Assembly (NCBI RefSeq): GCF_001888165.1
Contig: NZ_CP015455.1
Location: 310,001-374,000 of the forward strand
Source: Syntrophotalea acetylenica
GTDB lineage: Bacteria > Desulfobacterota > Desulfuromonadia > Desulfuromonadales > Syntrophotaleaceae
Direction of reading: 5' to 3'
DNA: 64,000 nucleotides
Below the pieces are notes generated by a model, which was not told the DNA's origin, searched no databases, and was given only the letters and a program-made list of their open reading frames with translations. The translations under genes and the position numbers were made by a program. Of the stretch, positions 49,797-64,000 are shown piece by piece; position 1 is the first letter of the stretch; each line of letters starts with the position of its first letter.

Positions 49797-50994
49797 CGCC
49801 GCTGGCGCACTGCTCGAAGGGACCATGGAGGCGGTAAACGCCGCACTGGTTGCCGACCAGTTGCTGGCGAACGGATCGACGCCGGTGCGCATTGCGGAAG
49901 AATCCGGCAACACCCCTTCGCCTTCGGTTTTGACCTGGCAATTCGGCGGGCGGCGCATCAACTCCGCAGACCTGATCCTGTTCTGTCGTCAGATGTACAG
50001 CCTCACCAGGGCCGGGGTGCCGCTGCTGCGGGCCCTGCGCGGCATGACCGAATCGGCCTGCAAGCCGATCATGGTGGAGACCCTGCAAGCGGTACTGGAG
50101 GATCTCGAAGGCGGCCGCGACCTGTCCGGGGCGATGCGGCGGCACCCCGGGGTTTTTCCGCCCCTGGTGGTCAACATGATTCAGGTCGGCGAAAGCAGCG
50201 GGCGGCTCGATACATCGTTCAGCGAGGTCGCGACCTATCTGACCCGCGAGAAGCAGACCGCCGACCAGATTCGGGCGGCGCTGCGCTATCCGACGTTTGT
50301 GCTGGTGGCCATCTCCGTGGCCATCGCCATCATTACCCTGTTCGTCATACCGGCTTTCGAAAAACTGTTCAGAGGACACGGCGCCCAATTGCCTTTGCCG
50401 ACCCGCGCCATTCTTGGCATCTCCAACTTTGCCGTGTCCTGGTGGTGGGCCATCCTTATCGCCCTGGTCGCCGGCTTTTTCAGCTGGCGCGCCTGGGTTC
50501 GCACCGAACGGGGCGCAATGGTCCGGGACCGGTTCAAGCTGCGCCTGCCGGTGGTTGGCAGCATCATCCATCGGGCTGTTCTGGTGCGCTTCGCACGGGG
50601 TTTCGCCATGGGCTACGGCGCCGGGATGCCGCTTATCCAGTCCCTGACCCTGACCGCCCAGGCGGTGGGCAACAGTTACGTGCAGCAGCGCCTCGGCAAG
50701 CTGCGGCGCGGCGTCGAGCACGGCGATACCCTGACGCGCAGCGCCGCCGCCAGCGAGATGTTTACCCCGCTGGTGCTGCAGATGCTGGCGGTCGGCGAGG
50801 AGGCCGGCTCCGTCGATACCATGCTGCTGGAGATCAGCGACTTCTATGAACGTGGGATTGAATACGACATCAGCCGCCTGTCCAGCGCCATCGAGCCGAT
50901 CCTGATCGTCATCATCGGCGCCATGGTGCTGGTGCTGGCTCTGGGCGTGTTCTTGCCCATGTGGAACATGGCCAGCGTCATGCGCGGGGGCTGA
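49768..50994 (+). CDS. mshG: MshG/PilC-type inner-membrane platform protein
   Basis: About 408 residues with the GspF/PilC architecture: two homologous cytoplasmic helical domains (FCRQMYSLTRAGVPLLRALRG and FARGFAMGYGAGMPLIQSL), each followed by membrane segments (about residues 165-190, 215-235 and 375-400). It anchors the ATPase and pilin assembly. ATG 49768 has GAGG nine bases upstream and lies inside the end of mshE, showing tight coupling. ATG 49753 or GTG 49762 are alternatives. Confidence 0.92.
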   Translation: MPRFRYQARSAAGALLEGTMEAVNAALVADQLLANGSTPVRIAEESGNTPSPSVLTWQFGGRRINSADLILFCRQMYSLTRAGVPLLRALRGMTESACKPIMVETLQAVLEDLEGGRDLSGAMRRHPGVFPPLVVNMIQVGESSGRLDTSFSEVATYLTREKQTADQIRAALRYPTFVLVAISVAIAIITLFVIPAFEKLFRGHGAQLPLPTRAILGISNFAVSWWWAILIALVAGFFSWRAWVRTERGAMVRDRFKLRLPVVGSIIHRAVLVRFARGFAMGYGAGMPLIQSLTLTAQAVGNSYVQQRLGKLRRGVEHGDTLTRSAAASEMFTPLVLQMLAVGEEAGSVDTMLLEISDFYERGIEYDISRLSSAIEPILIVIIGAMVLVLALGVFLPMWNMASVMRGG

Positions 50995-50999
50995 GGCGC

Positions 51000-51530
51000 A
51001 TGGCGAAGCCCAAAAGTTCCCGGTATCAGCGCCGCTGGACCCTGCGGCTGTTCGAATGGGGTGTGCTGGCCTGTGTCCTTCTGATTCTGACAGGGGTGTT
51101 TCTGCGCAAGGTTCGCCATCTGCAATGCGAAGCCGAGCGGTTCGCTGTGCAGGCCACCATCGACAATCTGCGCACTGCTGTGCTGCTGGCTTCCGTATTT
51201 CACAAAGAAAATGAACGGGCCTGCCGCAATGCCCGGCCGTGCGGCAATCCGGCGGCACTGCTGACGGCAGAAACGGGCCTGGCGCCGGAAGGCTACCGGG
51301 GAGCAGCGGACGACGTGGATCCGGCCGCAGTCGCTCCGGGCGCCTGGTATTTCGACCGGGCAACAAAGACGCTGATCTATCGGGTGCGCTGTGCCGAAGG
51401 CTTTCAAAGCCCCCTGTCCGGACCGGCGCGGCTTCGCCTGTGTCTTCGCAGGGCGCACCCATCCACCACAAACGCCATGCCCCTGGTCGTTGAACCGTGC
51501 GAGAGCTACGCGTGGGGGGACTCAGATTAA
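51000..51530 (+). CDS. MshF-like pilus-associated membrane protein
   Basis: 176 residues. One membrane segment near residues 18-38 (WGVLACVLLILTGVFL), a basic start, and a periplasmic domain with six cysteines. It lacks the GFTLxE pilin motif. Position between mshG and the pilin and the general layout match MshF, a poorly defined MSHA component. GGGGGCTGAGG precedes ATG 51000. Its last codons are followed by the promoter region of the pilin. Confidence 0.65.
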   Translation: MAKPKSSRYQRRWTLRLFEWGVLACVLLILTGVFLRKVRHLQCEAERFAVQATIDNLRTAVLLASVFHKENERACRNARPCGNPAALLTAETGLAPEGYRGAADDVDPAAVAPGAWYFDRATKTLIYRVRCAEGFQSPLSGPARLRLCLRRAHPSTTNAMPLVVEPCESYAWGDSD

Positions 51531-51573
51531 CCGAAGGCATTTTTATCAGGGTTTAGAAAAAGACGGCATGTTT

Positions 51574-51601
51574 TTGGCATTTTTTATGAAAATTATATGA
51601 T
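51574..51601 (+). promoter_or_regulatory. Sigma-70 promoter of the pilin gene
   Basis: TTGGCA (51574-51579), a 16-base spacer and TATGAT (51596-51601). The start would be near 51608, giving a leader of about 128 bases. A separate promoter would fit the high level of pilin needed. Confidence 0.55.
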
Positions 51602-51735
51602 CCTATGTCCATACATGTCAAAAATATGGCTTATATGAGAGCCTTTTCGGAGGGTTGTTGCTGTCCTTCAGGCGAGGACAGAAGCCAGCCTTCTTATTTT
51701 TAACCATGTTTTTGAACACATCAAAGGAGAGAAAC

Positions 51736-52143
51736 GTGAAAAGTCAGAGTGGTTTTACCCTGATCGAGCTGGTGGTGGTGATTGTAATTCTGGGGATCCT
51801 GGGGGCGGTCGCCGTACCGAAGTTCATCAGCATGGAAGCAGAGGCGGCGCGCGCATCAGCAAAAGGCATTGCCGGTGCGTTGACTTCCGCGTCAGCCATC
51901 AACTATGCACTTTACAAGGCAAATCCGGACTCGGCCGATGTCGTTGCGGTAAATAGCTGCGAGGACGTAAAGGTGTGCGTCGAAGGCGATGATCTGGATA
52001 GTAATTTTGAGATCGTTGCAGATACGGCAATTGCAGCAGACACAAATGTCGGGGATTGCTCAGTCAAGTATGTGAATGATGAATCGATTACGGCCTCTTT
52101 CAAGATTTACCGCACGGCGGCCGCCGATCCCGTCACTCCCTGA
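51736..52143 (+). CDS. mshA: MshA-type type IV pilin
   Basis: 135 residues. A short leader (VKSQSG) ends at the prepilin peptidase site G/FTLIELVVVIVILGILG with the conserved +5 glutamate. The hydrophobic helix is followed by AVAVPKFISMEAEAARASAKG, characteristic of MSHA-like major pilins. Three cysteines lie in the C-terminal half, two of them close together (CEDVKVC). GTG 51736 with AAAGGAGAG upstream is chosen; the longer frame is leader RNA. It ends the pilus cluster. A G/C-rich hairpin follows the stop. Confidence 0.92.
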   Translation: MKSQSGFTLIELVVVIVILGILGAVAVPKFISMEAEAARASAKGIAGALTSASAINYALYKANPDSADVVAVNSCEDVKVCVEGDDLDSNFEIVADTAIAADTNVGDCSVKYVNDESITASFKIYRTAAADPVTP

Positions 52144-52154
52144 TATGTTATGCG

Positions 52155-52190
52155 CCCCCTCCCGCTGTTCGGCGAGCGGCTGGGAGGGGG
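52155..52190. terminator. Possible terminator hairpin after mshA
   Basis: A G/C-rich stem, CCCCCTCCC (52155-52163) with GGGAGGGGG (52182-52190), lies between convergent genes. There is no T run, so it may only stabilise the mRNA end. Confidence 0.45.
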
Positions 52191-52248
52191 ACGAAAGTAC
52201 CCGGTCTATCCATATTGTGCCTGTCCGGGCATGTACGTTGCGATCGCT

Positions 52249-52734
52249 TCACGGTTTGTCAAGCGATACTTCCCTGAAAAACCGCACCAGCACATCTTTG
52301 ATTTCATCCCTTGCTTTTCGGTAGGCTTCCCTGATCTCATCATCGCTTCCCAGTGACCGCGACGGGTCCAAAACGCCTGTAAGGTACACTCTTCTGCCGC
52401 CATGGCTGGTCTGTTGCAGGTGGGGGCAGACGGCATTGCAGCGCCCGCAGTAACTCGTGGCGCCGTGGAGCAGGCACTTTTCCCCGGCGTCGCCCAGCAG
52501 CGTGATTACATAGTCGAAGGTTTCTTCGGCGAAGTCCTCCTCCGCTTTTGTCATGCAGTCGGTAACGGCGATGCCGATTTCGGACAGGACCGCTATCAGG
52601 CGTGGATCGACGGGTGCGGCATCGGCCGCGGCGGCCGAGGCGTGGACCCGATCCCGCAGAAAATGGTTGGCCAGCCACGCGGCCATTTGCGCGCGGCAAA
52701 AGCCGTGGGTATCCAGAAACAGTACGCGTATCAT
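52249..52734 (-). CDS. Low-molecular-weight phosphatase / arsenate reductase-like protein
   Basis: 161 residues. The N-terminus MIRVLFLDTHGFCRAQMA resembles the LMW protein-tyrosine phosphatase / ArsC signature (VLFVCxxNxCRSxxA), with one cysteine in FCRAQ. The usual first cysteine of CxxNxCR is replaced, reading DTHGFCR, so the catalytic cysteine must be that in CRAQ. Two more cysteine clusters (CLLHGATSYCGRCNAVC) may bind a metal. GGAGAAGG lies upstream of ATG 52734. Function is uncertain. Confidence 0.7.
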   Translation of the reverse strand: MIRVLFLDTHGFCRAQMAAWLANHFLRDRVHASAAAADAAPVDPRLIAVLSEIGIAVTDCMTKAEEDFAEETFDYVITLLGDAGEKCLLHGATSYCGRCNAVCPHLQQTSHGGRRVYLTGVLDPSRSLGSDDEIREAYRKARDEIKDVLVRFFREVSLDKP

Positions 52735-52957
52735 GGCCTTCTCCGTTTTGGTATGCTCCGGGGGAGTGTTTCCCGGCAGTCTGTGCCGCGTTGCCTGGCC
52801 CTTTCTTCTGCAAATTACGGACCCGGGCCCGTCAAGAGCGGCGGGTTGATGCGACAGCCCCCGCGGAGCATGGTAAGCTTGACTGAACGGAGGGCGGTCC
52901 CCTGCGCAGCAGGCGAGCCGCACATGCCTGTTATTTCATGACTCACGGAGGGAGACC

Positions 52958-54367
52958 ATGAATATTACCTTTCACGGCGCGGCGGGCACAGTGACCGGTT
53001 CCCAGCATCTGGTCGAGGTCAATGGCCGAAAAATCATGCTGGACTGCGGGCTGTTTCAAGGCAAGCGAAAAGAAGCTTTCGAGCGCAACCGGCATGAATG
53101 CTGTCCGGCCGGGGAAATCGACTGCCTGGTTCTGTCCCATGCCCACATCGATCATTCGGGTCGCATCCCCTGCCTGGTGAAAAACGGTTTCGATGGCAAC
53201 ATTTTCTGTACCTCCGCAACCCGCGATCTGTGCGAAGTGATGCTCATGGACAGCGCCTTTATCCAGGAAAAGGATGTGGAGTTCGTGAATCGCCGTCGCC
53301 ATAAAAAAGGGCAGCGGCTTTTCGAACCGCTTTACACCCGGGGGGACGTGACCCGTGCCATGCAGCAGTTTATCGGGATTGGCTACAACCGGCGGCATCA
53401 GCTCCTGCCCGGCATACACCTTACCCTGGTCGATGCGGGGCATATGCTGGGCAGTGCGCATGTCCTTCTTGATATTGACGACAATCAAACCGGGCGTCAG
53501 CGGCGGCTCGTGTTCAGTGGCGATATCGGCAGACCGGGCATCCCCATCATCCGAGATCCTGTTCCCATCACAGATGGCGCCGATATCCTGATCATGGAAA
53601 GCACCTACGGCAACCGGCTGCACCCTCCCTATCCCGAATCGGAGCGGGAAATGGAGCGCATCGTCAATGATACCGTCAAACGGGGCGGTTCGCTGCTGAT
53701 CCCGGCGTTTGCCGTCGGTCGAACCCAGCAACTGGTGTATACTCTGCACAAGTTGCACAGCAATGGGCGGATTCCCGATCTGCCGATTTTTGTCGACAGC
53801 CCCCTGGCCACGCGAACCACCGATATTTTTCGCCTGCATCTGGAGCTTTACGATGCCGACGTGCGTGAATTTCTGCTGACGGACGATGACAACGACCCCT
53901 TCGGATTCGGCCGTCTGCAGTACACCATGGCGGTTGCCCAGTCCAAGGCGCTCAACAGCCTCAAGGTGCCGGCCATCATCATCAGCGCCAGCGGCATGCT
54001 GGAAGGGGGCCGCATTCTCCACCATCTTCGAAACCGCATCAGCGACTCCCGCAACACGATTCTGATCACCGGCTGGCAGGCGCCCAATACCCTTGGGCGG
54101 CGTCTGGTGGAAGGGGAACAAACGGTGCGCATATACGGCGAGGAGTATCCGTTGCGGGCGCGGGTGGAAACTCTGACCGGTTTTTCCGGGCACGCCGACC
54201 GGGAAGGTCTGCTGGCGTTTGTCCGCAATATGAACAACAGGCCGCGGCATACATTTGTGGTTCATGGCGAGGAGGAATCCTCTGCAAGTCTGGCGCAAGC
54301 CTTGCGGGACGAGTTGAATCTGGACAATGTAATTGTTCCGGAGCCTTTGCAGTCGTTTCCGTTGTAA
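52958..54367 (+). CDS. MBL-fold RNA-processing exonuclease (beta-CASP)
   Basis: 469 residues of the CPSF-73-like family. The metallo-beta-lactamase part has SHAHIDHSGRIP (about residues 57-68) and LVDAGHMLGSAH. The beta-CASP domain includes the motifs ESTYGN and SASGMLEGG, and the C-terminal RMMBL segment has GFSGHADREG. Such enzymes process RNA or act in RNA decay. GGAGGGAGACC precedes ATG 52958. It is monocistronic and divergent from the phosphatase-like gene. Confidence 0.9.
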   Translation: MNITFHGAAGTVTGSQHLVEVNGRKIMLDCGLFQGKRKEAFERNRHECCPAGEIDCLVLSHAHIDHSGRIPCLVKNGFDGNIFCTSATRDLCEVMLMDSAFIQEKDVEFVNRRRHKKGQRLFEPLYTRGDVTRAMQQFIGIGYNRRHQLLPGIHLTLVDAGHMLGSAHVLLDIDDNQTGRQRRLVFSGDIGRPGIPIIRDPVPITDGADILIMESTYGNRLHPPYPESEREMERIVNDTVKRGGSLLIPAFAVGRTQQLVYTLHKLHSNGRIPDLPIFVDSPLATRTTDIFRLHLELYDADVREFLLTDDDNDPFGFGRLQYTMAVAQSKALNSLKVPAIIISASGMLEGGRILHHLRNRISDSRNTILITGWQAPNTLGRRLVEGEQTVRIYGEEYPLRARVETLTGFSGHADREGLLAFVRNMNNRPRHTFVVHGEEESSASLAQALRDELNLDNVIVPEPLQSFPL

Positions 54368-54543
54368 CCCAAGGCTCGAACTGTCCCGTTGCCAGCGCCA
54401 GGACCTTTCGGCCGTCATGACAGATGGACACCCCTGGCGGTTGCGATCAGTTGATATGAAACAGGGATTTTAGAGCTTGTACGTATCCTGCAGCTTTGCA
54501 CGGGCCGGGTCGGTGCCGGCCTTTAACCTAAGGGAGGCAAGAT

Positions 54544-54798
54544 ATGAGCTGGATCATGGCATTGATTATTGGCGGAATCGTCGGCTGGCTGGCGAGCATC
54601 CTTATGAAGACCAATGCACAGATGGGAATGCTTGCCAATGTGCTTGTGGGCGTGGCGGGTTCGATGCTGGGTTTCTGGATTGCCGGAGTGCTTGGCATGT
54701 CGGCTTCCGGCGGCATTATGCGCTTCATTGTCGCCATTGCGGGAGCATCGCTGCTGATCTTTATCCTGCGCAAGCTGGGTTTATTCGGCAAAGCGTGA
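54544..54798 (+). CDS. GlsB/YeaQ/YmgE family membrane protein
   Basis: 84 residues with three membrane segments. The pattern GGIVGWLASILMK and GVAGSMLGFWIAGVLG matches the transglycosylase-associated protein family, small stress-linked inner-membrane proteins of unknown biochemical role. AAGGGAGG precedes ATG 54544. Confidence 0.88.
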   Translation: MSWIMALIIGGIVGWLASILMKTNAQMGMLANVLVGVAGSMLGFWIAGVLGMSASGGIMRFIVAIAGASLLIFILRKLGLFGKA

Positions 54799-54924
54799 CA
54801 ACCGGGCGAAGACAGGGCGCCGGCCCGACCGGTTGCCGTTGCCGGCGCCTTTGTTGTTACCTGTAGCGGTGCTTCTCCGGGCGGGGTAATGGGACCCTGT
54901 CCTGCAAGGGAAAGACGTGGCATC

Positions 54925-55404
54925 ATGACCATTTTATTATGGTTGTTGGCCGGATTGCTGATTCTGTCGGGGTTGGCAGGGATGATTCTGCCGGCGCTTC
55001 CCGGACCTCCGCTGCTGTTCGCGGGCTTGTTCTGCGCCGCCTGGGCGGAAGATTTTGTCTATGTCGGCTGGCGGACCCTGATTGTTATGGGCGGTTTGGC
55101 TTTGCTGGCGCTTGCTGCCGATTTCATTGCCGGAGCCTTGGGCGCAAAGCGTTTCGGGTCCTCTTCCAGAGCCATGGTCGGGGCTGCCGTCGGGGCTCTG
55201 GTCGGTCTTTTTTTCGGGCCACCGGGCCTGATTTTGGGGCCTTTTTTCGGCGCCATGGCCGGAGAACTCACCGCGCGGACCGATCTGCGGACCGCAAGCC
55301 GGGCCGGCGTCGGCGCGGTGGTTGGCCTGATCGTGGGCACCGCGGCAAAAATGGCTCTCGCCATCGCCATGATTGGTTTGTTTCTCGCGGTGCGTCTGTT
55401 CTGA
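54925..55404 (+). CDS. DUF456 family membrane protein
   Basis: 159 residues, about five membrane segments. The glycine-rich pattern (GMILPALPGPPLLFAG, GAAVGALVGLFFGPPGLILGPFFGA, GAVVGLIVGTAAKM) is that of DUF456. Function is unknown. AAGGGAAAG lies somewhat far (about 10 bases) from ATG 54925. It is 126 bases from the GlsB-like gene and may share its transcript. Confidence 0.85.
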   Translation: MTILLWLLAGLLILSGLAGMILPALPGPPLLFAGLFCAAWAEDFVYVGWRTLIVMGGLALLALAADFIAGALGAKRFGSSSRAMVGAAVGALVGLFFGPPGLILGPFFGAMAGELTARTDLRTASRAGVGAVVGLIVGTAAKMALAIAMIGLFLAVRLF

Positions 55405-55739
55405 CAGGCCATCGGTTCTCCAATAAACCCGAAGCGATGTCGATTTTAGGCTGGATTTTATGCCTGAATTCTGCTATGTTGAGCGGATTAAAGCGGCAGT
55501 GGTCGTTTAATCGCTTCCAGCTATTGTTGCGAAGGGCCTGGCCTTGAACGGTCAGGCCCTTTATGTTTGCCTCCATGACCTGTTCAGGAGGAAACATCCA
55601 TTGGGAAAAGTGCCATCTTCCGGGGGAAAAGGGAGCGATGGCATTTCGGGCGGCCAGCAGGGTCGCCAGGTCATCGACCGTACCTTTGTTTTTTGCCCCT
55701 TGCTCCTTCCATCCGGGCTTTTTCCAGACAGGCTTGCTC
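55405..55739 (+). other. Leader region before the DEAD-box helicase gene, no gene
   Basis: About 335 bases with no supportable gene. It contains the hairpin at 55532-55561 and then 178 bases that would be helicase leader RNA. Long leaders are usual for cold-induced helicase genes, so the hairpin may be regulatory rather than only a terminator for the DUF456 gene. Confidence 0.4.
55532..55561 (+). terminator. Hairpin terminator or attenuator
   Basis: A 12-bp stem (55532-55543 with 55550-55561, one G-T pair), a TTGAAC loop and a short T-rich tail (TTTATGTTT). Confidence 0.6.
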
Positions 55740-57487
55740 ATGAGTGAAGAAATCCTTACCAGTTTTGCAGATTTATCCCTGGCTCCCGAAATCAACCGGG
55801 TCATTGCCGAGATCGGCTATGAGACGCCCTCGCCGATTCAGGCGCGCAGCATTCCGCCCCTGCTTGATGGGCGCGATCTTCTCGGACAGGCTCAGACCGG
55901 TACCGGCAAAACGGCTGCTTTTGCGCTGCCGTTGCTGAGCCGCCTCGATCTTTCGCTGAAAAGTCCCCAGATCCTGGTGTTGGCTCCGACCCGGGAGCTG
56001 GCCCTGCAGGTGGCCGAGGCCATGCAGACCTATGCCCGGCACCTGAAAGGATTTCAAGTACTCCCCGTTTATGGCGGTCAGAACATGGGACAGCAATTGC
56101 GCCAGCTGGAGCGTGGCACCCATGTGGTGGTCGGGACGCCCGGACGTATCCAGGATCACCTGCGACGCGGCACCCTGAAGCTGGACCGGCTGTCCAGTGT
56201 GGTCATCGATGAGGCCGACGAGATGCTTAAAATGGGCTTTATCGACGATGTCGAGCAGATCCTCCAGCATACCCCCGCGGATCGTCAGACGGCCCTGTTT
56301 TCCGCTACCATGCCCACCGAAGTGTTTAAAATCGCCCGTCGTCATCTGCGCAACCCCATCGAGGTGCGCATTCAGGCCAAAACCTCGACCGTCGATACCA
56401 TCAGCCAGCGATTCTGGCAGGTCAAAGGGCTGCACAAGCTCGATGCTCTGACCAGGATTCTGGAAGCGGAAGATATCGATGCCATGATCGTCTTTGTCCG
56501 CACCAAGGTCGCCACTGTGGAACTGGCCGAAAAGCTCGAAGCGCGCGGTTTTTCCAGTGCTCCCTCAACGGCGACATGACCCAGGCGTTGCGGGAAAAAA
56601 CCATCGAACGTTTTAAGGGAGGCAGTCTCGATATTGTTGTCGCCACGGATGTGGCGGCGCGCGGCCTTGACGTTCAGCGCATCAGCCACGTGGTCAACTA
56701 CGATATCCCCTACGACACCGAATCCTACGTGCATCGCATCGGCCGCACCGGCCGTGCCGGCCGCGAAGGGACCGCGATTCTCTTTGTCGCGCCGCGTGAA
56801 CGCCGCATGCTGTCGGCCATCGAGCAGGCAACACGGCAGAAAATCACTCCCATGAAGCTGCCGAGCCGGCAGGATATTACGGATCGGCGCGTCGGCCTTT
56901 TCAAGGAACAGATCCTCAACGTCATGCAATCCCAGGATCTCGATTTTTTCGAAGATTTGATCGACAATATGCAGGCAGAATACGATGCCGATGCACGCAA
57001 GATAGCCGCTTCGCTGGCGTATCTGCTGCAGAAGGATCGCCCTCTGATGCCCGAAGACGCCGGAGAGGAGTTGTGTCCGGAAGCCGGCACCATGCCCCGC
57101 GAAGCGACCTCTCGCTGGTCCGATGAGGGCTTGCAGCGCTATCGTATCGAGGTCGGACGCATTCATGGTGTGGAGCCCGGCCATATCGTTGGCGCTATTG
57201 CCAACGAAGCCGGGATCAGCAGCCGGGATATCGGACAGATAAAAATTCAGCACGATTTCAGCCTCGTCGACCTGCCCGCGAAACTGCCCGAATCTGTTTT
57301 CCGGCAGCTGCAGACGGTGTGGGTTTGCGGCCAGCAGCTGCGGCTGGTTGCCGATACGTATTCGAGAACAAAGCAGGAACGTCCACCCAAGCGCCGTTCC
57401 GTCGGTCGCTCTTTTGAAAAGCCCAAGGGCAAACCGGTGCGAAAGAATTTCTCCGGCGCTAAGCGTCAGGCAAAGAAACCCTTGTAG
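55740..57487 (+). CDS. deaD: DEAD-box RNA helicase (DeaD/CsdA type), one-base frameshift near 56563
   Basis: About 582 residues once repaired. The helicase core has the Q motif, Walker A AQTGTGKT, motif Ia [25 protein letters not shown] and [10 protein letters not shown]. The tail holds a DbpA-type RNA-binding domain ([22 protein letters not shown]) and a basic end. As given, the first frame ends soon after ARGFSSA (stop at 56577-56579) and the frame reading [12 protein letters not shown], expected to follow, is one base over. The length is one base short of a multiple of three; GCTGCC in place of GCTCC would restore it. ATG 55740 begins the family start. It would unwind structured RNA, often in the cold. 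Confidence 0.9.
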
Positions 57488-57663
57488 CATTCTCCTTTTT
57501 TCTCAAGATCGAGCTAGTTTTCATCCGGAAACGGCCCTTTTCCGCCATGGCGGCGTCAATCCGCAGGCTTGCTTGTGCGGCGTACCGATGTATGCCTCCG
57601 CGCAACCCCTTGATTTCCTTGCCACAGCGAAAAATTGCTCGTTTCCCATATGAAAACTACGCT

Positions 57664-57692
57664 GTATCCATCCGGAGTTTCCGGATGGATAC
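57664..57692. repeat. Perfect 13-bp inverted repeat
   Basis: GTATCCATCCGGA and its exact complement flank a three-base GTT loop. No T run follows. It may be an RNA hairpin or a protein site. Confidence 0.6.
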
Positions 57693-57723
57693 GAGCCAGC
57701 AATATTTGCCATGCGTTTTTTCA

Positions 57724-57760
57724 AGAATGCCCGGCCTGACATTGGCCGGGCATTCTTTTT
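57724..57760 (+). terminator. Rho-independent terminator
   Basis: A stem of 14 base pairs (AAGAATGCCCGGCC with GGCCGGGCATTCTT), a seven-base loop and TTTTT. It probably ends transcripts from the helicase gene about 240 bases upstream. Confidence 0.85.
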
Positions 57761-58407
57761 GGGCTTGCCTGTCCCTGCGGTCTTGCCTCGCGCCGTCGGT
57801 TGCAGAGGGTTGCTCAGAGAGGTCCGGCGGGCTGCGGTCTTCAGGGGCGTATTCGAAAAACCGGACTCCTGTTTGTAGAACATTGGTTGCCATGTCTGGA
57901 AGGAACCCGTTCTTTGCGGGTTTGCCGGCGCCCGATGTTTTCCCGCGATCCGTTTATGAAATCTTTCGGCCGCTTTTACATTCACGCTTTATGCGACGCA
58001 TCCACCAGGCGGAGTTTGCTTTTGGAACAGGTGTCAAAATGGATCACCCTGAAAACAATATAATGTTTCCTGGCGCTTGACATTCGTCAGCGACGTTGCT
58101 GGTTCGACTTTTTGAAATCATAAAGCATTCTTCAAATTATCAATGGTTTAGACGGCGTATACTGGTCTGCAGGCACTGTCCGGAAAATTTTTTTATTCAC
58201 GAAAAAACGTCTGGTACAGGGGCTTTTCAAAGTAATACATCTGTCTCACTTCGACTTATCCGTCTCAAAAGTATCTCTCCTGTCGCCTTGCTTTCAGCCC
58301 CCCCACCGCCTGCCGCCGGTGTATCCGATTTTTCGAATATTTATGTAATTGCAGGTAAAACAACAGTTTGAAAACATCGTTTACGAAAATTTTTCATAGA
58401 GGATGAT

Positions 58408-58424
58408 TTGGTACAACCATTGCG
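58408..58424 (+). promoter_or_regulatory. Sigma-54 (RpoN) promoter candidate
   Basis: TTGGTAC, then AACCA, then TTGCG: GG (58410-58411) and GC (58422-58423) are exactly 10 bases apart, as in the -24/-12 consensus TGGCAC-N5-TTGC. The start would be near 58435. It would drive the butanediol cluster with a leader of about 130 bases to the small ORF and 300 to the membrane protein. Sigma-54 control of acetoin/butanediol genes by an AcoR-type activator is known in other bacteria. No such activator gene is in the window. Confidence 0.65.
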
Positions 58425-58563
58425 GAACAGGTTGCACAGTAAAGCTGTTTTACAAACGTGTTTCAGTCAGGGTGCATTCGGCATGCACCGTGACGGCGGT
58501 AAGGTCTGACCGGTTGGCCAGAAGTTGATTTTCCCGTTCGGGTGTATTCCACGAAAGGAGGCT

Positions 58564-58683
58564 ATGGGGGGTGTCTCGGATTATGACTGTATGGAGGAGG
58601 TTTATGCGGTTGGAGAAAACAAGGGACAGTTCATTATTGGAATGTGTGTTCTGATTCGCGCAAGTCTGGAGCCTGGCGGTTGA
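58564..58683 (+). CDS. Small ORF, 39 residues, unknown
   Basis: ATG 58564 is preceded by AAAGGAGG at ideal spacing, one of the best ribosome binding sites in the window. It encodes a 39-residue acidic peptide (MGGVSDYDCMEEVYAVGE at the start) ending in a hydrophobic patch (FIIGMCVLI) and PGG. A perfect hairpin overlaps its stop codon. It lies between the sigma-54 promoter and the membrane protein. It may be a real small protein or a translated leader controlling the next gene; I recognise no family. Confidence 0.5.
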   Translation: MGGVSDYDCMEEVYAVGENKGQFIIGMCVLIRASLEPGG

Positions 58684-58699
58684 GCGTTCTGACGCTCAA
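58680..58699 (+). promoter_or_regulatory. Leader hairpin over the small ORF stop codon
   Basis: TTGAGCGT (58680-58687) pairs perfectly with ACGCTCAA (58692-58699) around a TCTG loop. The stop codon of the small ORF (58681-58683) lies in the left arm, so a ribosome finishing the small ORF would open the hairpin. No T run follows. Confidence 0.5.
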
Positions 58700-58735
58700 T
58701 CACTCGTGTAAACGTCTAGCAAAAGGAAGCTTTAC

Positions 58736-59722
58736 ATGGAACCTTATAGTCTTAATACCCTTTTGATAGTTTTTGGTGGCGGCATTATCGGTACGGCACT
58801 GGGTGGCCTCTGGGCGATCATCCTTTGCGCCCTTTTCGGGCTGATCGGTTGTGGCATTCTGCTTTCGGGCGGATCCGATTTCGTGCTGGCGCAGATCGCA
58901 TTCGGCCCCATTTTCGGCCCGCACACCGGTGGCTTCGGCGCGGCACTGATGGCCGGTTGCTACGCTGTGATGAAAAAGAATCACCCCGGTGGTTCCGCCA
59001 AGGATATCCTGAGTCCGTTGCTGCATACCTCAGGCGACGTGCTGCTGATGGGTGGCGCTCTCTCGGTTGTTGCCCATCTGGTTCTGCAGGTGGTGGTCAA
59101 GATCCCCATTGTCAATCAGTCCGACGGCGTCGCCGTGACCCTGGTGCTCATGACGTTCCTGACCCGTGCGATATTCCTCAAGGAAGGTCCCCTGGGGCAG
59201 GCTTCCTCGATCAAGGAGCATGGCCTTTTCGGCACCAACAATTACGCGATTTCCTGGGCTGGCTGGCAGTCTCCCATGAGTAAAAACATTCCCATGTCTT
59301 TCGGGATGGGGCTGCTGTCGGCAGGTCTTGCCTGGGGCTTCAAGATGCAGCTCGACCCCCTCGTCGAAGCCGGGACGGTCTCGGGTCTGGGCGGATTCCT
59401 CGCACCGCTGGTCATCGGCTGGATACTCTGTATCCTGATTCTCCTGCCGCTGCAGGTATCGACTGGCACGATCCAGCAGGTGCCGATCATGCACTGCATG
59501 GCGATCATCGGCGCCTGGGCGTTCATGCACACCGGCTCCATTTTGCTGGGCGGCATCGTTGCCGTGATTGCCGGCATGGTGCAGGAAGCCTGCGCACGTC
59601 TGTTCTACAACCATGGCAGCTCGCATATCGACCCGCCTGCCGTGGGGATTATGATCTGTACCCTGCTCATCAATCTGGCGATGAAGCCGGAATTCCTGAA
59701 TCTGGCAGCCCTGTTCAAATAG
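58736..59722 (+). CDS. Polytopic membrane protein of unknown function
   Basis: 328 residues with roughly eight to nine membrane segments rich in glycine, among them LLIVFGGGIIGTALGGLWAI, the MGGALSVVAHLVLQVVVKI segment, and the LLGGIVAVIAGMV segment near the C-terminus. No nucleotide-binding or known transporter signature is seen. AAGGAAG precedes ATG 58736. As the first full gene of the butanediol cluster it might be a permease for butanediol, acetoin or a related alcohol, but that is inference. Its last codons and stop are copied in the tandem repeat that follows. Confidence 0.75.
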   Translation: MEPYSLNTLLIVFGGGIIGTALGGLWAIILCALFGLIGCGILLSGGSDFVLAQIAFGPIFGPHTGGFGAALMAGCYAVMKKNHPGGSAKDILSPLLHTSGDVLLMGGALSVVAHLVLQVVVKIPIVNQSDGVAVTLVLMTFLTRAIFLKEGPLGQASSIKEHGLFGTNNYAISWAGWQSPMSKNIPMSFGMGLLSAGLAWGFKMQLDPLVEAGTVSGLGGFLAPLVIGWILCILILLPLQVSTGTIQQVPIMHCMAIIGAWAFMHTGSILLGGIVAVIAGMVQEACARLFYNHGSSHIDPPAVGIMICTLLINLAMKPEFLNLAALFK

Positions 59723-59821
59723 GGGATTTCTACTAAACAAAGCGCCTAGGCGCTACTTCTGAATCTGGCAGCCCTGTTCAAATAGGGGATTTCTACTAAA
59801 CAAAGCGCCTAGGCGCTACTT
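59696..59821. repeat. Perfect 63-bp tandem duplication with palindrome
   Basis: Bases 59696-59758 and 59759-59821 are identical. The first copy holds the last nine codons, including the stop, of the membrane protein gene; the second repeats them after the stop. Each copy contains the perfect 14-base palindrome AGCGCCTAGGCGCT (59741-59754 and 59804-59817). Confidence 0.95.
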
Positions 59822-59842
59822 AACTCGGAAAGGATCAAAGAA

Positions 59843-60910
59843 ATGGCTCAAACGATGAAAGCAGCCGTATGGCACGCCAAAAAAGACATCCGCGTAGAAG
59901 AAGTTCCCGTGCCTGCAGCCCCCGGGCCCGATGAAGTACAGGTTGAGGTAGCGGTTTGTGGCATCTGCGGTTCCGACCTCCACGAATATCTGGCCGGTCC
60001 GATCTTCATTCCTACCGCACCTCATCCTCTGACCGGCCACTTTGGCAAGACCATCCTTGGTCACGAGTTTTCCGGCAAAGTCGTTGCCGTCGGCTCCAAT
60101 GTCACCAACGTGCGGGTCGGCGATCTGGTCGCTCCCGACGCCTGCCAGCATTGCGGTACCTGCGTTACTTGCCGTGAAGGCCGCTACAACGTTTGTGAAA
60201 AGCTGGCCTTTACCGGTCTGATGGCCGATGGCGCGTTCGCCAAGTATGTCAACATTCCTGCCAACATCTGCTACGTCGTACCTCCCGGCACCGACCTGGA
60301 CGCCGCGGCCCTGATCGAGCCGATCGCCACCGGTTTCAAAGCCGTGCGCCTGGCTGGCTCCATTCTCGGTAAAACCGCTGTAATCCTCGGGTCCGGCACC
60401 ATCGGCCTCGGTACCCTGCAGTGCGCCAAGGCTGCCGGCGCCGGTCAGGTCATCGTGATCGAGATGTCTGCTGCCCGTAAGGAGCTGGCCAAGAAGTGCG
60501 GCGCCGACGTGGTTCTCGATCCCAGAGAGTGCGACGTGGTTGCCGAAGTCAAGAAACTGACCAACGGTTCCGGTGCCGACGTCTCCTTCGAGTGTATCGG
60601 CAACGTCAAGACCGGTCCTCTTGCCATCGATCTCATTCGCAACAACGGTACTGCGATGATCGTCGGTATCTTCGAGGGCCCGAGCGAATTCAACTTCTTC
60701 AGCCTCAGCGCCACCGACAAGAGGGTCATCGGTACCCTGGCCTACACCGTGGACGATTTCCAGGGTGTCTGTGCTTTGCTGAACAACGGCGCGATTAGTG
60801 CCGAGCCGATGATCACTGGTAAAATCGAGCTGGACGATATCGTTGAAAAGGGTTTCGAAGAGTTGGTCAACAACAAGGATGCCCATATCAAGATCCTTGT
60901 GAAGCCCTGA
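59843..60910 (+). CDS. bdhA: (R,R)-2,3-butanediol dehydrogenase-like zinc alcohol dehydrogenase
   Basis: 355 residues of the MDR family. Catalytic zinc ligands lie in CGICGSDLHE and GHEFSGKV, and the structural zinc cysteines are CQHCGTCVTCREGRYNVC. The NAD-binding site is ILGSGTIGLGTLQ. The sequence pattern (AGPIFIPTAPHPLTG) is typical of (R,R)-butanediol dehydrogenase, which interconverts 2,3-butanediol and acetoin with NAD. GGAAAGGATC lies before ATG 59843. A paired hairpin follows its stop. With the acetoin reductase at 62401 it forms a stereochemically complementary pair. Confidence 0.88.
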   Translation: MAQTMKAAVWHAKKDIRVEEVPVPAAPGPDEVQVEVAVCGICGSDLHEYLAGPIFIPTAPHPLTGHFGKTILGHEFSGKVVAVGSNVTNVRVGDLVAPDACQHCGTCVTCREGRYNVCEKLAFTGLMADGAFAKYVNIPANICYVVPPGTDLDAAALIEPIATGFKAVRLAGSILGKTAVILGSGTIGLGTLQCAKAAGAGQVIVIEMSAARKELAKKCGADVVLDPRECDVVAEVKKLTNGSGADVSFECIGNVKTGPLAIDLIRNNGTAMIVGIFEGPSEFNFFSLSATDKRVIGTLAYTVDDFQGVCALLNNGAISAEPMITGKIELDDIVEKGFEELVNNKDAHIKILVKP

Positions 60911-60923
60911 AAAGTGTGATGGA

Positions 60924-60955
60924 AAGCTCCGCCGGGGAAACCTCCGGCGGAGCTT
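60924..60955. terminator. Hairpin after butanediol dehydrogenase
   Basis: A 12-bp stem, AAGCTCCGCCGG with its complement, and an eight-base loop, but no T run. It may cause partial termination or protect the mRNA end; downstream genes are on the same strand. Confidence 0.55.
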
Positions 60956-61015
60956 AATCTCTGACCAGAGATCTGCAATACGGACTTTGGAAACGGGTTG
61001 GCAAGAGGACAAAAA

Positions 61016-61354
61016 ATGAACAGCCGAATAAGCGACGACATACTGGAACGTCTCGTTGCCTACGAAAAGTATGTAGGGAAACTCTTTGCCAGGGCTGCGC
61101 GCAAGCGGTGGCTGGAGATTAACAGCGAGGCTGTGGAGGATTACGAGAGGCTCAAGGCCCTGAAGGCTGAAATAGCTTCCATCGTCGATCTTGCCTTTAT
61201 CCGGTATGGGGTTGAACAGGGCCTGATGAGGGATGACAGGAACGCGCCCATGTCCGGTCTGGATGAAGACCTCGAAGCCCTCGCCGCCCAGCTGTCAAGT
61301 TCACAATGGGTGGATTCCTGTCGCAGCGCGGACAGGCTGGCTTTGGTCAGATGA
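61016..61354 (+). CDS. Unknown small helical protein
   Basis: 112 residues, strongly helical and charged (MNSRISDDILERLVAYEKYV, then AARKRWLEINSEA). No signal, membrane segment or recognised domain. AGAGGAC precedes ATG 61016. It is conserved in position within the butanediol cluster here; I cannot say more. Confidence 0.7.
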   Translation: MNSRISDDILERLVAYEKYVGKLFARAARKRWLEINSEAVEDYERLKALKAEIASIVDLAFIRYGVEQGLMRDDRNAPMSGLDEDLEALAAQLSSSQWVDSCRSADRLALVR

Positions 61355-61420
61355 GGGTTATCCGGGGGAGTGCGGTCGTTCTGTCCAAACGGTTCCTCTA
61401 AATCAAAGAAAGGCTCTGTT

Positions 61421-61723
61421 ATGGCTCTTAAAGCTGCATTCATTTTTATCGGTCCGAGTGCCGATCCGGACAAGCACCGCAGTGTCGTCAGTACGCCCGG
61501 CGTGGAGCTGACGGTGGTCGGGGTCAGCGACTACGCCGCCGCGGAAAAGGTGGCCATCGCCCTGGTGGACGAAGGGGTTGTCGCCATTGAACTCTGTGGT
61601 GGTTTCGGTCATGCCGGTACAGCTCGCATTGCCAGGGCGGTGGAGGGAAAAGCCGCTGTCGGCGTGGTGCGATTCGACAGCCACCCTGGCCTGGGGGGCA
61701 AGAGCGGCGACGAGATCTTTTAG
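61421..61723 (+). CDS. DUF6506-like small protein
   Basis: 100 residues, alternating beta and alpha: ALKAAFIFIGPSADPDKH, GVELTVVGVSDYAAAEKVA, GVVAIELCGGFGHAGTARIA and VGVVRFDSHPGLGGKSG. I believe it is of the DUF6506 family, of unknown function. Start ATG 61421 has GAAAGG some 10 bases upstream. It sits between the helical protein and the VOC protein. Confidence 0.65.
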   Translation: MALKAAFIFIGPSADPDKHRSVVSTPGVELTVVGVSDYAAAEKVAIALVDEGVVAIELCGGFGHAGTARIARAVEGKAAVGVVRFDSHPGLGGKSGDEIF

Positions 61724-61804
61724 GCGCATGTCCGGATTCTGGTTTTTTCCTGGTCTGTTTCTTCCCGATGACAAGCGCGGCATCTGCTTTTAAAGGAGCG
61801 TTAA

Positions 61805-62296
61805 ATGAAGCCTCTGTATAACAAAGTGCTGCAAGTGGCGATGGTCGTCAAGGACTGCGATGAAGCGGTGAAAATCTGGGCCGACAAATATGGCATCGGC
61901 CCCTGGAATATCTATGAATTCAATCCCGATACCGTCAACGACATGATCATCCGGGGCGAGAAGGTTGATTATGCCATGCGTCTGGCGCTGTGCGATATCG
62001 GCGGCGTTCAGTGGGAACTGATCGAGCCGCAAGACGATAAAAGCATTTACGCGGAGTTCCTCAAGGAAAAGGGCGAAGGTCTGCATCATGTTGCCTTCGG
62101 CACCGACAACTATCAGCAAGCCGTCAAGTTTTACAAGGATCAGGGGCTTCCCGTTCTGCAGGGTGGCGAGTGGTCCGGGTTGACCTATACCTATCTCGAT
62201 TCGCAGAAAGATCTCAATCTGATTGCCGAAATTTACGACCTGGTGCCGGATTTCAGCTGGCCCGAGCCTCAGGCCGTTTATCCCCCGGAGCAATAG
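61805..62296 (+). CDS. VOC/glyoxalase-fold protein
   Basis: 163 residues with two beta-alpha-beta-beta-beta modules of the vicinal oxygen chelate fold. Likely metal ligands are in LQVAMVVKD, GGVQWELIEP, GLHHVAFGTD and NLIAEIYDL. It resembles methylmalonyl-CoA epimerase-type proteins, but the substrate is unknown. AAGGAGCG precedes ATG 61805. It could act on a carbonyl intermediate of the cluster. Confidence 0.8.
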   Translation: MKPLYNKVLQVAMVVKDCDEAVKIWADKYGIGPWNIYEFNPDTVNDMIIRGEKVDYAMRLALCDIGGVQWELIEPQDDKSIYAEFLKEKGEGLHHVAFGTDNYQQAVKFYKDQGLPVLQGGEWSGLTYTYLDSQKDLNLIAEIYDLVPDFSWPEPQAVYPPEQ

Positions 62297-62400
62297 CCTG
62301 GCAGGGACTATAGCAGGCCAGACTGGGTATATTTTGCTTGTTTTCCTTTTGATAGGGGTATTTTGCCCGGGTTTTCCAACCAGAAAAAAGGAGCACGGAC

Positions 62401-63210
62401 ATGAGCGAAAAGAAACTTGCAGGTAAGGTTGCAATTGTAACGGGATCGGGCCGTGGCATCGGCAGGGCCATCGCCATGCGGCTGGCGGCCGATGGGGCTG
62501 CCGTGGTGGTAAGCGATGTCATGGCGGACAACATGAACAAGGTTGCGGCCGAGATTGAAGCTGCCGGCGGCAAATCACTGGCGGTTGCCTGCGATGTAAC
62601 CAATGAGCAGCAAGTCAATGCCCTGGTGGAAAAGGCTGTAGCAAAATTCGGCAAGCTGGACATCATGGTGGCCAACGCCGGCATCGGCATCGTCAAGGTC
62701 GGTCTTGACCATACCCCCGAGGATATCGACAAGCAGCTTGCCGTCAACGTGAAGGGCGTCATTCTTTGTGACAACGCAGCCGCCCGGCAGATGATCAAGC
62801 AGGGCCATAAAGGCTATCTGGGCAGCGGCGGCAAAATCATCAACTGCGCCAGCATCGCCGGTCACGCCGGTTTTGCCTTTCTGCCTGTCTACAGTGCTTC
62901 CAAGTTCGCCGTCCGGGGCTACACGCAAGCTTTTGCCAAGGAAATGGCGGAAAACAAAATTACGGTCAATGCCTACTGCCCCGGCATCGTCGGTACCGAT
63001 ATGTGGGATCTTATCGATGAAAAAATCGGGGCCTACACCGGTGCGGCCAAAGGTGAAACCCTCAAGGCCTATGTTGACAGCGCCATCCTTGCAAAAGAAG
63101 TCGGAAAACCGGAGCAGGTTGCCGGTTACGTATCCTTTGTCGCTTCCGATGATGGCGATTACATGACCGGCCAGTCGGTCATGATCGATGGCGGGATTAT
63201 CCTGGTATAG
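62401..63210 (+). CDS. budC: Acetoin reductase / (S,S)- or meso-butanediol dehydrogenase (SDR)
   Basis: 269 residues, a classical short-chain dehydrogenase. The cofactor motif is TGSGRGIGRA (residues about 15-24), the structural motif is NAGIG, the catalytic serine is in NCASIAG and the YSASKFA motif bears the tyrosine and lysine. The PGIVGTDMW segment and the GYLGSGGK insert resemble BudC/ButA diacetyl/acetoin reductases. It interconverts acetoin and butanediol with NAD. AAAAAGGAGC precedes ATG 62401. Confidence 0.85.
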   Translation: MSEKKLAGKVAIVTGSGRGIGRAIAMRLAADGAAVVVSDVMADNMNKVAAEIEAAGGKSLAVACDVTNEQQVNALVEKAVAKFGKLDIMVANAGIGIVKVGLDHTPEDIDKQLAVNVKGVILCDNAAARQMIKQGHKGYLGSGGKIINCASIAGHAGFAFLPVYSASKFAVRGYTQAFAKEMAENKITVNAYCPGIVGTDMWDLIDEKIGAYTGAAKGETLKAYVDSAILAKEVGKPEQVAGYVSFVASDDGDYMTGQSVMIDGGIILV

Positions 63211-63308
63211 AGTTCTATGACTCCGGGGGCAACCCTGACGGGTGCCCCCGGGATCTCTCCCGCGTTTCGATGCGGCCGTCATCGTCACCAGCGTGAAAGG
63301 AACCTGTT

Positions 63309-63607
63309 TTGAGCGGAAACAAGCTGTATATCGTGGCCAAGTTCACGGCAAAGCCGGGGTTGGAAGAGGTTGTAAAAAAGAGTTGACGTCATTGCTGGAG
63401 CCTACGCGTGCCGAAGCCGGCTGCATCAGTTACGACTGTCATCAATCCCAGGAGAATGCCGCGATCTTCGTGTTTTACGAGGTGTGGAAAAACCGGGAAG
63501 AGCTGGATAAGCACCTTGGCATGCCTTATCTGAAGGCGTTGCTCGGCAAGGTGGATGAACTGTTCGCCGTGCCCCCCGAACTGCACTTTTTGAACAAACT
63601 GGGCTGA
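63309..63607 (+). CDS. ABM-domain (putative quinol monooxygenase-like) protein, one-base frameshift
   Basis: About 99 residues once repaired. TTG 63309 (MSGNKLYIVAKFTAKPG) has AAAGGAAC upstream. The frame stops at 63384-63386 after EEVVKKS; one frame over, the protein goes on as ELTSLLEPTRAEAGCISYD and ends at TGA 63605-63607. Six A stand where seven are needed (near 63373-63378). The pattern GCISYDCHQ, FVFYEVWKNREEL and HFLNKLG is that of the antibiotic biosynthesis monooxygenase fold. It lacks a cofactor, and its role in this cluster is unknown. Confidence 0.8.
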
Positions 63608-63663
63608 CTCTTTCACCATTTTGTCAATGTGTCCAACCCGTCACCTTGAACTGAGGAGGTATT

Positions 63664-64000
63664 ATGAGCGTTGAAGGTAAGGCAAAAATATTGCGGATTT
63701 TTCTTAACGAAAAAACCAAGCTCGGCAACGAGCTGGTGTACGAGGCGATGGTTCAGGCTGCCTTCAAAAAAGGCATAGAAGGGTCCATGGTGTTTCGCGG
63801 AGTCGAAGGATTCGGATTCTGTTGCGACCAATGCCGTACCATTCATGAAGGCATGACGATTTCCGTCAAATGTCAACCGATGGTTATCGAATTTATCGAT
63901 ACCGAAGCGAAACTCAATGAGCTGCTGCCGATTTTGAAGGGCATGCTCAAAACGGGCGCCATGATCATGCAGGATGCGGATATCGTATTTAATCAGGGCT
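63664..64000 (+). CDS. DUF190-like protein, partial at the window end
   Basis: At least 112 residues, running off the right edge. The N-terminal KAKILRIFLNEKTKLGNELVYE, the helix MVQAAFKKGIEGSMVFRG and the PMVIEFIDT segment match DUF190, a PII-like fold. The usual region after GVEGFG is replaced by FCCDQCRTIHEGM, a cysteine cluster I do not know in the family. GAGGAGG precedes ATG 63664. Confidence 0.75.
   Translation, partial: MSVEGKAKILRIFLNEKTKLGNELVYEAMVQAAFKKGIEGSMVFRGVEGFGFCCDQCRTIHEGMTISVKCQPMVIEFIDTEAKLNELLPILKGMLKTGAMIMQDADIVFNQG

Follow-up and report, generated by a model that had tools for sequence, protein, structure and literature searches.

Candidate roles for the companion proteins of an acetoin and 2,3-butanediol gene cluster in Syntrophotalea acetylenica

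A known acetoin cluster and its companion genes

The acetoin dehydrogenase cluster of Pelobacter carbinolicus consists of 28 genes on one strand, most of which are upregulated on acetoin (Aklujkar et al., 2012, PMC3543383). Roles have already been proposed there for Pcar_0329 as an inner-membrane facilitator, for the DUF190 protein as its modulator, and for the VOC protein Pcar_0333 as an epimerase (PMC3543383). Here we consider a related region of Syntrophotalea acetylenica in a window of 64 kb (bases 310001–374000 of a 3.19-Mb contig, in a genome of 3.2 Mb). On its + strand, from 58736 to the window end, eight genes encode a membrane protein (MEM, the counterpart of Pcar_0329), an MDR zinc dehydrogenase, a helical protein (HEL), a DUF6506 protein, a Glyoxalase_4/VOC protein, an SDR, an ABM-domain protein and a DUF190 protein. 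Six of these were assigned to families by Pfam, while a Pfam scan gave no family match for MEM or HEL. The HEL gene (61016–61354, 112 aa) adjoins the butanediol dehydrogenase (BDH) gene throughout this bacterial family.

The contig continues 3′ of the DUF190 gene with an outer-membrane Phenol_MetA_deg protein (a porin or barrel), AcoR (a sigma-54 activator), thiC, thiG, a thiH-like gene, acoX, acoA and acoB, and further 3′ with acoC, lipA, lpd, a nitroreductase/ferredoxin protein, a 3-hydroxyacyl-CoA dehydrogenase, lipB and a hydrolase; thiH, acoC, lipA, lpd, lipB and the last enzymes were named from their own sequences and the published layout rather than by family scan. The genes whose joint presence we took to define an aco cluster (acoR, acoX, acoA, acoB, acoC and acoL) are all found here together. 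NCBIfam names the E1 component as PDH-like, below its cut-off; from the neighbouring acoX and acoR genes and the characterised cluster of P. carbinolicus (PMC3543383) we infer that it would act on acetoin. AcoAB, AcoC and AcoL would cleave acetoin into acetyl-CoA and acetaldehyde, using TPP and lipoate, cofactors whose synthesis genes lie within the same cluster. Induction on acetoin may carry over from P. carbinolicus to this relative.

The original prediction had named the same eight genes on one strand, and all are present at the stated place on the + strand, but the ABM gene is not intact. Its assignment to butanediol and acetoin was correct, the block being the front of the published aco cluster, and it was right in calling several of the companions uncharacterised. 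Its view that the block does not match the acetoin dehydrogenase operon fails, as the block belongs to the published 28-gene cluster (PMC3543383), and the suggested new pathway gives way to a classical aco operon, published for P. carbinolicus, once the contig is extended to the right. Nor is there any indication of the protein microenvironment or microcompartment that it raised, with no shell-protein gene seen. The region is very probably the promoter-proximal part of the operon by which a Pelobacter (Syntrophotalea)-type fermenter catabolises acetoin and 2,3-butanediol; the cluster and its pathway are already known, and what is new are refined roles for the companion proteins.

From the membrane protein through the aco genes to lipB and the hydrolase, the genes, their order and their strand match Pcar_0329–0351 (PMC3543383). 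P. carbinolicus differs in having an SDR scrap alone (Pcar_3424), with no ABM gene found, where an intact SDR gene and an ABM gene stand here. The gene order from MEM to AcoB is the same in G000 and in G004, a genome that we regard as P. carbinolicus-like by its gene order, and it is identical in G001, G005 and G006 as far as the contig or stretch ends. The original prediction would have failed had the companions been scattered in other genomes; they are kept together in these four other genomes of the family (G001, G004, G005 and G006), which supports one functional unit and, with the partial gene sets of G011 and its contig L019/L116, argues that the grouping is not due to chance. The distant genome G320 also holds MEM, BDH, SDR, AcoA, AcoB, DUF190, VOC and AcoX together, in a different order.

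Predicted promoter, membrane protein and DUF190

Upstream of the operon, TGGTACAACCATTGC (58409–58423, + strand) is the sole exact match in 64 kb to the sigma-54 type −24/−12 pattern TGGYACN5TTGC, with 0.32 matches expected by chance. The site occurs at the equivalent place in five genomes (this one, G001, G004, G005 and G006) between diverged flanks, its final C being A in G001 and G005. Just upstream lies a conserved block, TAAAACAACAGTTTGAAAAC (58355–58377, + strand), which is near-identical in G004 and G005 and partly so in G001, again with diverging flanks, and is a candidate AcoR binding site. Since AcoR is a sigma-54 activator, its control of the predicted promoter is likely, and the operon is probably transcribed from 58409–58423 under the AcoR encoded downstream.

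Other features were observed around this site. A possible leader peptide of 30–39 aa with a ribosome site is found at 58564–58683; G001, G005 and G006 share its C-terminal IGMCxLIRAxL, which is not clearly present in G004. A dispersed intergenic element of ~178 bp (57515–57693) carries a 3′ hairpin and is bounded by short inverted ends, TAGTTTTCAT...ATGAAAACTA. This genome has at least 41 copies (89–99% identical), and several related genomes, from three genera, have tens of them; the element folds far better than its shuffles (z −7) and has no Rfam match. An Rfam scan of 50000–64000 gave no RNA element.

The first gene of the operon (58736–59722) encodes MEM, a multispanning membrane protein of 328 aa and a predicted inner-membrane channel for acetoin and 2,3-butanediol. 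An exact 63-bp tandem duplication (59696–59821, + strand) comprises the end of this gene and the GCGCCTAGGCGC hairpin. The AF2 model of MEM (pLDDT 89) has structural matches at Z 5.5–7.6, the best 15 being urea transporters (UT) and the next 16 being Mep2, Amt or Rh proteins, after which the scores drop to Z 4.8. Its two halves share an internal repeat that is in register and scores 27.7, where shuffles reach 18.9 at most; the fold of UT and Amt proteins is an inverted repeat of 5+5 helices. Membership of the urea-transporter family itself was rejected, as Pfam gave no match of MEM to PF03253 and the profile–profile score of 15.4 was as low as that of shuffles; with no sequence relation, only a possible similarity of fold is proposed, at Z values below 8.

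The DUF190 gene (63664–64000, ending 2 bases past the window) belongs to the PII/GlnB-like family PF02641 (80.4 bits in Pfam, cut-off 23.4), and its product matches the solved protein TM0021 (E 1.8e-9), which we take to be PII-like. A DUF190 gene also stands directly beside MEM paralogs in five other loci. One MEM paralog (L112, 6293–7676) has DUF190 directly 3′, and this MEM copy is frameshifted by one missing base. In their best structural matches, two-repeat layout and, in many loci, a PII-like DUF190 partner gene, MEM and its neighbour would resemble the UT/Amt-Rh channels with GlnK-type PII; they differ in that MEM has no sequence-level relation to UT proteins and DUF190 is not GlnK. A serious contender, to which we give a little under an even chance, is that MEM works as an ordinary secondary transporter and has an unrelated fold, with a chance arrangement of helices behind the resemblance and a different job for DUF190. 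Structural scores in this range do occur for chance arrangements, and the lack of a sequence match to the UT family fits as well, whereas the restriction of all top 31 rows to UT, Amt or Rh proteins, the internal repeat and the adjoining DUF190 genes all speak against it. As a channel, MEM would carry 2,3-butanediol and acetoin across the inner membrane after their passage through the Phenol_MetA_deg-type barrel of the outer membrane, and its opening would perhaps be modulated by the PII-like DUF190 protein.

Butanediol dehydrogenases, the ABM gene and the VOC protein

Two dehydrogenases of known kinds, the BudX MDR and the C. glutamicum-type SDR, are encoded here in one operon, which sets this locus apart from the described 2,3-butanediol dehydrogenases, as does the duplication of the SDR. 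The BudX-type MDR zinc dehydrogenase (59843–60910; Pfam and NCBIfam) is 83% identical to the G004 gene that matches Pcar_0330 budX by position (PMC3543383). The SDR (62401–63210) resembles (2S,3S)-2,3-butanediol dehydrogenases of the BudY type, with 11 of the 11 active-site residues of the C. glutamicum (2S,3S) enzyme present (residue table from PMC3543383); its best family is the acetoin reductase TIGR02415, at 279 bits, below the curated cut-off of 304. The MDR would act on R-hydroxyls and the SDR on S-hydroxyls, so that, with opposite stereochemistry, the butanediol stereoisomers would yield (R)- and (S)-acetoin. No BudZ-type meso enzyme was found in this genome at E 1e-60.

Remnants of the SDR gene stand at the same site in G004 (residues 224–267) and G001 (residues 240–268), and the whole gene is present in G006 and G011. 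With such a remnant in the P. carbinolicus-like G004, gene decay is the best reading of Pcar_3424, published as a ‘modulator’, which appears to be a scrap of the in-cluster SDR gene; this reading of the sequences would correct the published guess. P. carbinolicus does not grow on pure (2S,3S)-butanediol (PMC3543383), whereas such growth would be expected here. A second SDR copy in this genome, 98% identical, adjoins a second acoR. The DNA identity of the two copies (~97%) stops at the ends of the open reading frame, and this confinement suggests gene conversion. Directly upstream of the second budY copy (L109, 3216–5700) are IS3- and IS4-like transposase genes, the IS4-like one in pieces.

The ABM-domain gene (63309–63607; PF03992, 49.6 in Pfam, cut-off 23.1) is intact in relatives, while here its frame is broken by one missing base near 63374 (between about 63369 and 63385, at GTA AAA AAG AGT TGA), so that an uninterrupted frame is left for the C-terminal part alone. 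The DEAD-box RNA helicase gene at 55563–57487 is likewise split, with one base missing near 56565. With the MEM paralog at ~586.6 kb this makes two other genes of the genome that lack single bases, and deletions in the assembly are the simplest reading, so the ABM frameshift is probably an assembly error. The heptamer A AAA AAG does lie in the correct frame and a −1 product aligns with the relatives, as would be expected if the break were real, by programmed −1 frameshifting or as a pseudogene; given the other two broken genes, and the absence of the slippery site from intact ABM relatives, we consider a real break unlikely, and programmed frameshifting less likely than an assembly deletion.

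The VOC protein (61805–62296) is related to methylmalonyl-CoA epimerase (MMCE), far below the cut-off of the MMCE equivalog TIGR03081 (51.4 bits, cut-off 114.95). Its conserved Gln10, Glu71, His95 and Glu142 stand at what we take to be the metal-ligand positions of MMCE and form a putative metal site; ligand-type residues are thus kept at all four positions of this VOC fold family, although the set is Q-E-H-E here and H-Q-H-E in MMCE (first His to Gln, second Gln to Glu). The stereocentre of acetoin is alpha to its carbonyl, and an enediolate mechanism is typical of VOC enzymes; by such a mechanism the protein could racemise acetoin, and it is a candidate for the interconversion of the (R)- and (S)-forms.

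The epimerase published for Pcar_0333 would instead act as an acyl-CoA epimerase on 3-hydroxybutanoyl-CoA, and both the similarity to MMCE and the 3-hydroxyacyl-CoA dehydrogenase and hydrolase within the cluster (also PMC3543383) fit that role. It is nevertheless improbable, given that known VOC epimerases invert the carbon alpha to a thioester, that in 3-hydroxybutanoyl-CoA the C3 centre is a non-acidic beta carbon, that the metal set and score depart from those of MMCE, and that close VOC relatives accompany acoAB in the aco clusters of L016, L048 and G116. Still more doubtful is a reading of the companions as detoxifying or scavenging helpers for diacetyl, methylglyoxal-like dicarbonyls and acetaldehyde adducts, with VOC as a glyoxalase and ABM as a scavenger of small molecules. 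Both folds are common in such roles and the substrate pathway makes aldehydes, but among the genes of the cluster none was noticed that would supply a glutathione- or thiol-linked partner, and the link between DUF6506 and acoB would be left unexplained.

We hypothesise that acetoin racemase fits VOC chemistry better than the published epimerase proposal. An acetoin racemase has been postulated in Klebsiella and not confirmed (PMC4709696), and our literature search found no gene named as one. VOC as a universal companion of aco genes was ruled out, a close relative occurring in 2 of 32 DUF6506 genomes (in aco clusters in both); as most DUF6506/aco genomes lack the gene, it is optional. An acetoin racemase gene would test two competing models of butanediol stereoisomer formation.

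DUF6506 and the proposed working of the operon

The DUF6506 protein (PF20116; 61421–61723) scores 127.7 bits in Pfam, against a cut-off of 27. PF20116 occurs in 11 of the 297 genomes sampled from the phylum; nine of the 11 have an acoB-like gene within 15 kb, eight of them within 5 kb, where chance placement would give about none. In a wider collection, roughly two thirds of 42 DUF6506 loci also have acoA, acoB or acoX, the aco-linked loci coming from Anaerolineae, Synergistales, Acetobacterium, Syntrophomonas and one Thermococcus genome. Across phyla, DUF6506 is a protein of acetoin clusters, though not strictly so: in some carriers its gene adjoins that of a lipoate-protein ligase or an AraC regulator. 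The confident structural model (pLDDT 95.7) has no closer counterparts than generic Rossmann-like folds (Z 7.0 at best). Cys59 never varies, and Arg84 and Asp86 hardly do. Our literature search found no paper naming DUF6506. It may be a dedicated helper of acetoin dehydrogenase, perhaps in a cofactor-related role.

What the sequences show is which genes are present, their order and conservation, the promoter site, the active-site residues and the linkage of DUF6506 to aco genes; transport, gating, racemisation and the helper roles are proposals, the first three drawn from fold, context and chemistry. Put together, they would make MEM and DUF190 a PII-gated diol channel with a UT/Amt-like fold and no detectable sequence relation, gated as AmtB is by GlnK and with paralogs for other diols. 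The VOC protein would be the acetoin racemase that has long been postulated, and DUF6506 would assist acetoin dehydrogenases in general; that all three hold jointly is a tentative and rather unlikely proposal. DUF6506 can now serve to mark acetoin clusters across bacteria and in one archaeal genome. If true, a PII-like gate on a diol channel would bring the textbook regulatory pair AmtB–GlnK into carbon uptake.
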